Below, in pieces: positions 8,388-11,264 of a stretch of DNA of 13,259 nt. The stretch covers positions 1-13,259 of the forward strand of contig JAAOIF010000005.1 in assembly GCA_015163925.1 (NCBI GenBank), written 5' to 3'. The notes below the pieces were generated by a model that worked only from the letters and a program-made list of their open reading frames with translations, did not search any database and was not told the DNA's origin. The DNA is from Candidatus Thioglobus sp. (GTDB lineage: Bacteria > Pseudomonadota > Gammaproteobacteria > PS1 > Pseudothioglobaceae). The position numbers and the translations under genes were made by a program. Position 1 is the first letter of the stretch; the number at the start of each line of letters is the position of its first letter.

Positions 8388-8591
8388 ATGGAAAAAGAAT
8401 ACGATTTTTCAAATGGCATCAGAGGCAAGTTTTATCAAAAAGATGCGCAATTTCATTTGCCTGTTTATCTTGAGCCGGAGATAGAAGATTTTGTTATGCA
8501 ATTAGCAAAAAGGCAAGATGTTGATTTAACTCAAATGGTCAATAGCTTGCTTTTAAAAGACAAAGCCTTGATTGAATTGGCGGATAAATAA
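8388..8591 (+). CDS. small antitoxin-like protein (ribbon-helix-helix type), no toxin partner seen
   Basis: A 67-residue protein preceded by AAGGGG nine bases before the ATG. Its start, YDFSNGIRGKFY, resembles the N-terminus of a widespread group of small antitoxin-like proteins, and the rest can be read as a short strand (FHLPVYL) followed by two helices (EPEIEDFVMQLAKRQ and LTQMVNSLLLKDKALIEL), the order of a ribbon-helix-helix DNA-binding fold. Such proteins usually pair with BrnT-, RelE- or PIN-type toxins. No toxin gene adjoins it: secF lies before it and a lipoprotein gene after it. It may be an orphan antitoxin, a stand-alone regulator, or have a very short partner I do not see. The fold assignment is by pattern only. 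Confidence 0.65.
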   Translation: MEKEYDFSNGIRGKFYQKDAQFHLPVYLEPEIEDFVMQLAKRQDVDLTQMVNSLLLKDKALIELADK

Positions 8592-8614: not shown

Positions 8615-8643
8615 ATGCCAAAAGCATTAAATTTAAGTATAAT
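8615..8643 (+). promoter_or_regulatory. sigma-70 promoter of the lipoprotein gene
   Basis: ATGCCA (8615-8620, 4 of 6 to TTGACA), a 17-base spacer, then a perfect TATAAT (8638-8643). Transcription should begin near 8650, at the foot of the leader hairpin. An in-frame ATG at 8615 falls inside the -35 box, which argues that it is not the start codon. Confidence 0.7.
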
Positions 8644-8650
8644 TCACAAA

Positions 8651-8679
8651 ATCCTAAACATTTTTAGGATATTTTTTTT
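8651..8679 (+). promoter_or_regulatory. leader hairpin with T tract (possible attenuator)
   Basis: ATCCTAAA-CATT-TTTAGGAT (8651-8670) forms a perfect 8-bp stem with a 4-base loop, followed by eight Ts (8672-8679). It has the shape of a weak intrinsic terminator but lies downstream of the predicted promoter and 7 bases before the Shine-Dalgarno (from 8687), so it would sit at the very 5' end of the lipoprotein mRNA. It could attenuate transcription, stabilise the 5' end, or end read-through from the upstream small gene. The stem has only three GC-type pairs out of eight. Confidence 0.5.
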
Positions 8680-8698
8680 AACTAAACGGAGAAATAAA

Positions 8699-9832
8699 AT
8701 GAAAAACTCAAACAAATTAAGCAAATTATTTGCTTTATCAATCCTAACTCTAACTCTTTCCAGCTGCGGCGGCAGTGCGGGGGGGGGGGGGGCTTCTGAG
8801 CAAGGCAGATTTAAAGATGCAAATGTTGACGGGCTTTCCTACACCGGCAGTTTTCCGGGCATAACCGAGGGCGGCGGCAAATTTAATTATCAAACTGGCG
8901 ATGTCTTGGCTTTTTCAGTTGGCGATATTGAGTTAGGCACTGCTACTGCTGCCGGCATTATTACCTTAAATGATTTATCCGGTAAAAACGCCAATCAAGT
9001 TTCAAAAGTTGCTCAACTCTTGCAAAGTCTTGATGCTGATAGCGACCTTCCTAACGGCATTACAATTAACGCTGCGGCACGGGCGGCATTAACAAAAGGC
9101 ACAACTGAAGTAGATACTATAATTACTGTATTGGCTGCTACAACGCCTGATTTTCTGGGGGATTTGGCTAATTTAGTAACTCTCGTAAGTGCGGCTGATA
9201 GTGCTGGCACTTATACTCAAGTATCAAAAACTAATGCAGATGCTCATTTGTTAGAGACCCTCAGTTGCGCTTATTCGGGCGGATTTGTCGGCACTCAGAC
9301 AGCCGCTGATGCAAGCACAAAAGTAGCATTTTTAATCAATAGCGATGGCACTGTAAAAATGGTAAATGCTGCTGGGACAACTGATACTGGCACTGTTAAT
9401 ATCAGCCTTGCTGGCAAGCCATCATGGACGCATGACAGCATAACATATACGCTTGAGACTATAAATAGCTTGTCAGGCGTTGGTGCTGATAAGCAAATTA
9501 CTGCTGAGAGAATTGGTGGCGAGCTTGATGCAATCTATCGGTTTACTGCTATTAGTGCTAACTATGGTATTTTTACTTTTGATGTGGCAGGCACAAATAC
9601 GGCAGTAACAGGCACGGCATACAATCTTGAGAATGACGAATCTTTTCCAATAACAGGTGATTTGTCTGATACTGGTGCGTTAGATGCAAGAATTGAAGAT
9701 GGACTTAACACTGCATTGAGTGCAAGCTTTGTTCTTACAGCAGGTATGGTTGGTATTAATGGTGTAGGCGTATGGTCTATTCTAGACGGTAGCAGCGGAA
9801 TATTTACTGGTAGCGGTTGTAAGTTAAATTAA
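8699..9832 (+). CDS. putative surface lipoprotein with in-frame poly-G tract
   Basis: A 377-residue exported lipoprotein. The start at 8699 is chosen over 8615 because CGGAG (8687-8691) precedes it, a promoter overlaps the earlier start, and it gives a textbook signal: two lysines, a hydrophobic core, then the lipobox LSSC with Cys23 as the lipidated residue. A Gly-rich spacer follows, encoded by 14 consecutive Gs. Next comes a module I recall from secreted gammaproteobacterial proteins: VDGLSYTGSF, GKFNYQTGDVLAFSVG, and NQVSKVAQLLQSLDADSDLPNGI (about residues 40-120). The remainder is Thr/Ala/Gly-rich and probably beta-stranded, with one Cys in LETLSC and another in the final residues GCKLN, possibly a disulfide. 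The substrate or function is unknown. It stands alone, with its own promoter and terminator. Confidence 0.85.
   Translation: MKNSNKLSKLFALSILTLTLSSCGGSAGGGGASEQGRFKDANVDGLSYTGSFPGITEGGGKFNYQTGDVLAFSVGDIELGTATAAGIITLNDLSGKNANQVSKVAQLLQSLDADSDLPNGITINAAARAALTKGTTEVDTIITVLAATTPDFLGDLANLVTLVSAADSAGTYTQVSKTNADAHLLETLSCAYSGGFVGTQTAADASTKVAFLINSDGTVKMVNAAGTTDTGTVNISLAGKPSWTHDSITYTLETINSLSGVGADKQITAERIGGELDAIYRFTAISANYGIFTFDVAGTNTAVTGTAYNLENDESFPITGDLSDTGALDARIEDGLNTALSASFVLTAGMVGINGVGVWSILDGSSGIFTGSGCKLN
8779..8792 (+). repeat. 14-G homopolymer in the coding sequence
   Basis: Fourteen consecutive Gs encode part of Ala27, Gly28-31 and the first base of Ala32, nine codons or fewer after the lipidated cysteine. 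At 14 the reading frame is open. One added G gives GGC TTC TGA, an immediate stop; one lost G leads to a TAA about 24 codons later. This is the arrangement of a slipped-strand phase-variation switch. The exact count should be treated with care because homopolymers are error-prone in sequencing. Confidence 0.9.
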
Positions 9833-10509: not shown

Positions 10510-10809
10510 ATGAGATTGACTAATTCACAGCAAAATATCATCAAACAAACGGTTGCAGCGCAGTTTGATAAAGGCACAAAAGTAAGGCTTTTTGGCTCCA
10601 GAGCAGACGATAATCTAAGAGGCGGCGATATTGATTTATTGTTAGAATTCAACGCCAAAACCGCCCAACTTGCCAGCAAAATTCTACGCCTAAACAGCCT
10701 ATTACAAAAACAATTAGGCGCACAAAAAATTGATATTATCACTTTAGAGGCGCACCAAACACCAAATGCAATCCAGCAGCAAGCCTTAAAAACCGGAGTG
10801 CTTTTGTGA
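10510..10809 (+). CDS. minimal nucleotidyltransferase, MntA-type antitoxin
   Basis: A 99-residue DNA polymerase beta-superfamily minimal nucleotidyltransferase. The active-site signature is GSRADDNLRGGDIDLLLEF: Gly29-Ser30, nine residues, then D40 and D42; a third acidic residue is D75 in KIDIITLE. In the known MntA-HepT systems the MNT partner transfers AMP groups from ATP onto a tyrosine of the HEPN toxin and so silences it. That reaction is inferred here from the gene pairing. The ATG lacks a Shine-Dalgarno and follows an extended -10 by 7 bases. Its TGA overlaps the GTG start of the next gene (GTGA, 10806-10809), so the two are translationally coupled, with the antitoxin first. Confidence 0.88.
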   Translation: MRLTNSQQNIIKQTVAAQFDKGTKVRLFGSRADDNLRGGDIDLLLEFNAKTAQLASKILRLNSLLQKQLGAQKIDIITLEAHQTPNAIQQQALKTGVLL

Positions 10810-11264
10810 ATCCAGACTTGCGAATTGCCCAAATTATTAGTGTTCTTGAAAAAGAAGATGCCTTGCTCAAAGGTGTTTCTGCACGCTTTTTTAATCAAGA
10901 AAAATTAGATGCCGAATGGTTGGAAAACGCCCTTAACACGCCCGATGGCATTGACCGATTAGAATCATTTGCAGCAAAATTTTCGCGTATGCAAGATATG
11001 TTAATAGATAAATTATTGCCGTTATTTTTACAACATTTGGGCGAAATTCCAAAAACTGCCATTGATAATCTCAACCGTTTGGAGCAATTAAATATTATTG
11101 ATGATGCAAATTCTTGGGCTGATATGCGCCAGTTACGCAATAAATTAGTGCATGAATATGTGGATGATAATCAGCAATTATGTGAATATTTATTGCTGGC
11201 GAAAAAATTCTCAGCGAATTTAAGCGCTGGTTTTGTGAATTTGAAAAGCGCTTTGCAAGTATAA
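10806..11264 (+). CDS. HEPN-domain protein, HepT-like toxin (RNase)
   Basis: A 152-residue helical protein with a GTG start that overlaps the end of the nucleotidyltransferase gene. Near the C-terminal third, RQLRNKLVHEY contains the HEPN catalytic motif RX4HXY: R111, H116 and Y118. In HepT toxins this motif forms a metal-independent RNase site in a dimer, and the tyrosine is the residue that MntA AMPylates. Other conserved-looking blocks are FSRMQDMLIDKLLP (59-72) and TAIDNLNRLEQLNII (84-98), which I recall in HEPN proteins paired with MNT partners. It is somewhat distinct from the classical DUF86 HepT sequence. No Shine-Dalgarno is needed if it is reached by reinitiation. The motif is intact, so it is probably active; target RNA is unknown. 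Confidence 0.88.
   Translation: MNPDLRIAQIISVLEKEDALLKGVSARFFNQEKLDAEWLENALNTPDGIDRLESFAAKFSRMQDMLIDKLLPLFLQHLGEIPKTAIDNLNRLEQLNIIDDANSWADMRQLRNKLVHEYVDDNQQLCEYLLLAKKFSANLSAGFVNLKSALQV

Follow-up and report, generated by a model that had tools for sequence, protein, structure and literature searches.

An assembly of 1,168,428 bases (230 contigs, 86% complete) holds eleven paralogous lipoprotein genes with a long run of G at the same place, just behind the lipobox. We propose that these genes form a multi-locus system for translational phase variation of surface lipoproteins, with slipped-strand mispairing as the switch; the sequences suggest such switching, and we consider this reading highly probable. 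Slippage-based on/off switching, which the sequence-only reading had suggested for one of these genes, is supported by the shared position of the run at 11 loci, by a mixture of frames with open bodies, by a difference of one G between sister copies, and by the failure to detect MutS.

In the proposed mechanism, the G run would slip by at least one base during replication, and one length class in three would connect the signal peptide and lipobox with the body of the protein. The ON state would yield a lipid-anchored protein with a few glycines as a linker, whereas translation in the OFF state would stop within about 25 codons and leave a short acylated peptide. Steps of three would be silent because the run codes for glycine in a length-tolerant linker. 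As the 5' cassette is common to different bodies, each locus would switch alone, and many combinations of surface proteins would coexist in one population. We infer that slippage is the cause, that it is reversible, that the proteins are displayed at the surface, and that they have a role toward a host, phages, or neighbours.

One of the eleven genes (C186) lies in the window, which is the whole stretch of 13,259 nt that we analysed. Its open reading frame runs from the ATG at 8699 to the stop codon at 9830-9832 (377 amino acids). The translation begins with a predicted lipoprotein signal peptide, MKNSNKLSKLFALSILTLTLSSC (8699..8767, + strand), which ends in a clear lipobox (LSSC; the cysteine codon TGC is at 8765-8767). 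The proposed switch is a run of 14 G (G14; 8779-8792, + strand) that begins 11 bases beyond the cysteine codon, 27 codons into the ORF, and is in frame in this assembly. Thus, there is indeed a 14-G run just behind a lipobox, as originally described. The body of the lipoprotein and its stop codon follow (8793..9832, + strand). The earlier claim that gain or loss of one G leads to an early stop also stands: the other two frames give TGA (8797) after 1 codon and TAA (8862) after 23 codons, so a one-base change at G14 truncates the product. The genome had also been put at about 40% GC; the value computed for the window is 43.5%. At this locus we saw the in-frame state only, in this one assembly.

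G14 is the only run of at least 8 G or C in the window, and when the window was simulated 200 times with a first-order Markov model, the longest G run was 11, which was reached once. Fitting such a model to 143,877 bases of the assembly, a sample of regions that were picked for containing long G runs, leads to an expectation of 0.0018 runs of at least 14 in 1.17 Mb; for runs of at least 10, a first-order model predicts 0.66 in the whole assembly.

Upstream of the ORF, a consensus scan identified a promoter-like site (ATGCCA, a spacer of 17, and TATAAT; 8615..8643, + strand; 10 of 12 matches). The region has 7 promoter-like sites, versus 4.6 (s.d. 2.3) in shuffled sequences, which is weak support on its own. 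The TATAAT of the window and the stretch downstream of it recur 5' of the genes on C25, C49, and C193. Between the putative -10 site and the ribosome-binding site is an AT-rich hairpin of 8 bp followed by T8 (8651..8679, + strand; arms at 8651-8658 and 8663-8670, T8 at 8672-8679), and C25, C49, and C193 have similar elements. (This hairpin was not listed by a terminator scan, which needs 3 G-C pairs, and an Rfam search of the window matched no RNA element.) The predicted ribosome-binding site, GGAG (8688..8691, + strand), is conserved in the cassettes of this group. A small ORF of 67 amino acids, without a Pfam family, lies between secF and the lipoprotein gene (8388-8591, + strand).

Across the assembly, we counted 17 runs of at least 8 G, 15 of at least 9, and 11 of at least 10. 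Eleven of the 15 runs of at least 9 G, and 10 of the 11 runs of at least 10 G, are directly behind the lipobox in the paralogous genes. The tracts at these loci contain 14 G (C186, in the window), 13 (C25, C49, and C193), 15 (C111 and C161), 12 (C182 and C211), 10 (C208), 9 (C163), and 46 (C151). The sequence before the tract is either TGCGGCGGCAGTGC or TGCGGCAG(T/C)TCCACTAATGC, which places it behind the lipobox cysteine, and the corresponding peptide is CGGSA or CGSSTNA at all 11 loci, with runs of 9-46 G. The remaining runs of at least 9 G are on C42 (9), C43 (two of 9), and C55 (12). (The run on C55, at L043 81-92, is intergenic, near the start of the contig and before palindromic repeats; it lies about 530 bases before an anthranilate synthase-like ORF, and we set it aside as a member of the group.) In the 143,877-base sample, G/C runs dwindle before the long ones appear, with 49 of length 5, 2 of length 6, and none of length 7. 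Runs of at least 9 A number 18 in the assembly, although it is AT-richer.

Signal peptide and body are in the same frame at four loci (C186, C111, C182, and C208) and out of frame at six (C25, C193, C161, C211, C151, and C163). (The frame of C49 is unreadable because its contig ends 4 bases past the run.) The out-of-frame bodies are nevertheless open, for 307 codons in C25, 472 in C211, and 143 in C161, and for 145 in C193, 77 in C151, and 37 in C163, which are cut by contig ends. Both frame states, with open bodies in the OFF state, are the mark of a contingency locus, and here they are found among paralogs (4 in, 6 out, 1 unreadable). Not every locus is proven to be a whole gene: C49, C151, C163, and C193 are cut by contig ends, the C161 body has a stop after its 143 codons, and C193 and C208 are doubtful. 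These two are possibly chimeric or cut, because the terminal residues of C193 match ThiC weakly and the C208 body is short and ends close to the edge of its contig.

We compared rates of nonsynonymous and synonymous change between the copies (dN/dS, by the Nei-Gojobori method). Between out-of-frame copies, dN/dS was 0.110/0.263 for C25 and C193 (over the first 120 codons) and 0.313/0.692 for C25 and C211. For the in-frame pair C111 and C182 it was 0.297/0.604. Mixed pairs gave 0.329/0.724 (C182 and C211), 0.339/0.914 (C111 and C211), and 0.261/0.747 (C161, out of frame, and C111). Two close pairs have 3 changes in 77 codons (C211 and C151) and none in 37 codons (C208 and C163). Judging by these rates, constraint on the out-of-frame copies has equalled that on the in-frame copies, which argues for genes that return into frame.

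Sister copies also differ in the length of the tract. C163 and C208 are identical over the first 110 bases of the body and have runs of 9 and 10 G, and C151 and C211 have bodies that are 97% alike and runs of 46 and 12 G. All run lengths come from the consensus of short reads and could be wrong by one base or more, and the 46-G value is doubtful. (This run, at L045 9094-9139, is near a contig end and is perhaps an assembly error, or else a greatly expanded tract.) One alternative is that the runs exist but that errors of sequencing or assembly make their lengths and frames unreliable, so that the genes are perhaps all in frame. The assembly does have the style of a short-read assembly, with its 230 contigs and its 46-G run, and in another genome of the family (G028), poly-G with adapter-like ends is an artefact: the 9 of its 11 runs that we inspected (L121-L128) are at contig ends and not behind a lipobox, and the sequence beside them is presumably Illumina adapter. 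In contrast, the eleven loci have the run at one place with different flanks, and similar proteins that start inside the linker are found in what appears to be a different assembly. Furthermore, 9-15 G within an ORF would be prone to slippage even if the lengths were off. We consider this explanation improbable.

The evidence from database proteins is as follows. With the window lipoprotein as the query, five proteins were found, including itself and the one from C77. One of them, P0002, starts with MRGGGGTSV, inside the linker. P0011 and P0012 (MQTAVIILAGRGGG) and P0019 (MLGGGD) also have starts within the linker. In P0014, by contrast, the signal peptide is complete (NCGNNAGGGGG). The out-of-frame gene on C211 is itself a database protein (P0008), and it starts with MRGGGASAG. 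Such starts are what a gene caller produces for an out-of-frame allele. P0002, P0011, P0012, and P0019 apparently come from a different assembly, so we infer that a second assembly holds out-of-frame alleles as well. Pieces of this lipoprotein family also occur in two proteins named as Betaproteobacteria, P0188 (with the tag HAW59) and P0043, which is fused to a flavoprotein; their source is probably chimeric contigs or mixed bins.

Another alternative is that slippage occurs at the RNA level, by the polymerase or the ribosome, so that each cell makes some full-length protein whatever the length of the DNA tract. Long homopolymers can cause transcriptional slippage, and this would be compatible with slippage of the DNA. 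Nothing in our data specifically favours it, however, and the spread of lengths among sister copies reflects change in the DNA. We consider this explanation improbable, too.

The run might instead do no more than encode glycines that link the lipid anchor to the body, without any switching. The in-frame tracts do code for 3-5 glycines, and a glycine-rich stretch after the cysteine is also present in the homologs on C77 and in G001, P0004, and P0005. But in the tract-free homologs (C77 and the same-genus genome G001) the linker after the cysteine is encoded by mixed glycine and serine codons, and GGG accounts for just 302 of the 2,140 glycine codons (14%) in long ORFs, so a linker alone fails to explain pure GGG. 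Also, of the ten loci whose frame can be read, six are out of frame and hence make no linker. This explanation is very unlikely.

Phase variation by slippage of the DNA would be favoured by the lack of mismatch repair. MutS_I was not detected in any of 36 genomes from the family (some of which are incomplete), while 16 of 21 other genomes in the class have it; a control matched in 11 of 14. In this group, a cold-seep sponge symbiont and two clam symbionts are published as lacking MutL-MutS (PMC5361782). With MutS missing, slippage should stay uncorrected throughout the family. Yet the pattern TGCGGN{0,25}HG9 matches only 2 of 83 family genomes, namely the window's assembly (G000; 11 places) and G012 (1 place, without a lipobox), so the lack of repair is not enough to produce such runs.

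We searched the 35 other MutS-less family genomes for runs of at least 10 G and found none in most of them, including the nearest complete relative, G001, which has a homolog of the lipoprotein without the tract. The runs that we inspected in G012 (6 of 6), G018 (4 of 4), G002 (1 of 1), and G013 (1 of 1) have no lipobox in front. (One run in G012, L115, is directly after a cysteine codon, and we rejected it because no hydrophobic signal sequence precedes the cysteine. The run in G013, L130, consists of 14 G midway through an open frame of 516 codons.) In a survey of the class, 78 of 369 genomes matched TGCGGN{0,25}HG9, with 11 places in G000 and 5 each in the next genomes, G312 and G327. A reversed control pattern was about equally common outside G000, so the pattern alone is weak evidence. 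A simple lipobox rule of our own making was passed by 11 of 11 loci in G000 versus 0 of 31 sites outside it (L162 and L173-L202, a subset of the listed places). Neutral drift after the loss of mismatch repair, with the out-of-frame genes dying, would fit the small genome and the lack of detectable MutS across the family sample, but it is hard to credit given that other MutS-less family genomes mostly lack runs of at least 10 G or have them without a lipobox, that the runs in the window's assembly share a single position within one family of genes, and that the out-of-frame copies have open frames and dN/dS like those of in-frame copies.

The 5' parts of the eleven genes fall into two main types. 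Type 1, found at C25, C49, C193, and the window, combines TATAAT, a small hairpin trailed by a run of T, and a GGAG ahead of the start codon ATG. Type 2 is found at C151, C161, C163, C182, and C211, and in part at C208; C111 has an upstream sequence of its own. The closest family pairs are 91-98% identical at the nucleotide level across the signal region, and the window's signal region has an identity of 0.97 to that of C49. There are 55 pairs of loci, and the 10 that involve C49 have no body for comparison. In 38 of the 45 comparable pairs, the signal regions are more similar than the bodies, which suggests that the 5' part spread or was exchanged. For example, C161 and C182 are 97% identical upstream, 86% in the signal region, and 61% in the body. 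The other seven pairs (C151-C211, C163-C208, C111-C182, C111-C151, C111-C211, C193-C208, and C163-C193) have bodies that are more alike than the signals, and this argues against strictly modular cassettes. Exchange of cassettes among the loci is likely, though it has not been clean.

We tentatively suggest, although we lean against it as a full account, that the 5' cassette (promoter, lipoprotein signal peptide, and poly-G) is a portable switch that copying or recombination has placed before 11 or more bodies of different kinds in a MutS-less lineage with a small genome. Free slippage would then give combinatorial coats, as many as 2 to the 11th states for independent loci, which might be maintained because the bacteria meet an animal host or its phages. 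If so, even the OFF copies would each give off a tiny acylated peptide.

The bodies are of more than one kind. Big_2 domains score above the Pfam cut-off in the bodies of C208, C211, and C161. A stretch in the paralog bodies resembles Fn3 by eye, with no Pfam match above the cut-off. The C-terminal parts of the C25, C111, C182, and C211 bodies are similar to FISUMP (Fib_succ_major) proteins: against PF09603, with a cut-off of 33.9 bits, C111 scores 35.1 and is the only one to pass, while C25, C182, and C211 score 23.1, 22.8, and 17.9. For TIGR02145 (FISUMP), the paralog bodies score 26.3-32.9 bits versus a cut-off of 41.65. With the C182 protein as the query, there were 25 matched places in the assembly, 28 in G088, and 22 in G091, whereas G001 had 1 match, a weak one. 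Some of the 25 places are in very long open frames (1,066-2,824 codons) on C161, C196, C99, C212, and C158, each of which matches this FISUMP-type lipoprotein several times. We also considered whether the bodies might be targets of a diversity-generating retroelement, and rejected this: no reverse transcriptase (PF00078) was found in the 86%-complete assembly, and a control matched in 3 of 14.

The body of the window lipoprotein is of another kind and does not match any Pfam family. It has a paralog on C77 (49% identity over residues 2-285). A profile of five members of its family, across residues ~37-166, matches part of an AcfD homolog (PDB profile, E = 2.1e-7), so that about 130 residues of this family align to a stretch of a solved homolog of the SslE/AcfD surface lipoproteins. 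However, SslE/AcfD has 1,520 amino acids versus 377 in the window protein, which has no trace of the protease part, and its score against the NCBIfam model SslE_AcfD, 14.8 bits versus a cut-off of 800, places it outside that family.

As a kind, this system belongs with the known contingency loci. Most of the poly-G contingency genes known so far are from bacteria that colonise vertebrates. In Mycoplasma, the families of the Vsp/Vpma type are surface lipoproteins with a common 5' part and differing bodies that are switched singly by DNA recombination; here, the switch would instead be a homopolymer inside each gene. Work on Neisseria used G/C runs of at least 9 as the threshold for a tract, and reported averages of 15.4 poly-G tracts per genome in the meningococcus, 18.2 in the gonococcus, and 19.4 in N. 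lactamica (PMC5953494). All 11 of our runs have at least 9 G and lie in an ORF near its 5' end. As in Neisseria, there are many loci per genome and one length in three is in frame; in contrast to Neisseria, 11 of the 15 runs occupy a single position behind the lipobox in one family of lipoproteins, and the bacterium belongs to a lineage that comprises marine sulfur oxidisers and symbionts and in which MutS was not detected.

A search with SecD gave 26 loci, and 21 of these, with 69-76% identity, are from records such as thiotrophic symbionts of Bathymodiolus, Candidatus Ruthia, Ruthturnera, Thioglobus, and the SUP05 cluster; we take the family to be Thioglobaceae. The lineage of the window is likely to be host-associated, as judged from its relatives, which live as symbionts in mussels, clams, and sponges (see also PMC5361782). 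A literature search on phase variation in Thioglobus, SUP05, Bathymodiolus, or sponge symbionts returned, among the matches listed, none on this subject by title. As far as our searches show, both setting and design are new: the tract has a single position in one family of lipoproteins, the 5' cassettes are shared, and MutS is undetected. If the switching is real, it would suggest that a symbiont with a small genome invests in random surface variation where a quiet mutualist might be expected. The loss of mismatch repair, which is usually read as decay, would in this case raise the rate of switching.

The window has two other features. A nucleotidyltransferase gene (PF18765 and PF01909; PADLOC PDC-S09) overlaps a gene for a HepT-like protein (PF01934) at 10510-11264 (+ strand), and the pair looks like a MntA-HepT toxin-antitoxin system. 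At 2587-2691 is a palindromic dispersed repeat with arms of 28 nt, and similar copies are present on C49, C55, C77, C146, C151, C163, and C193.
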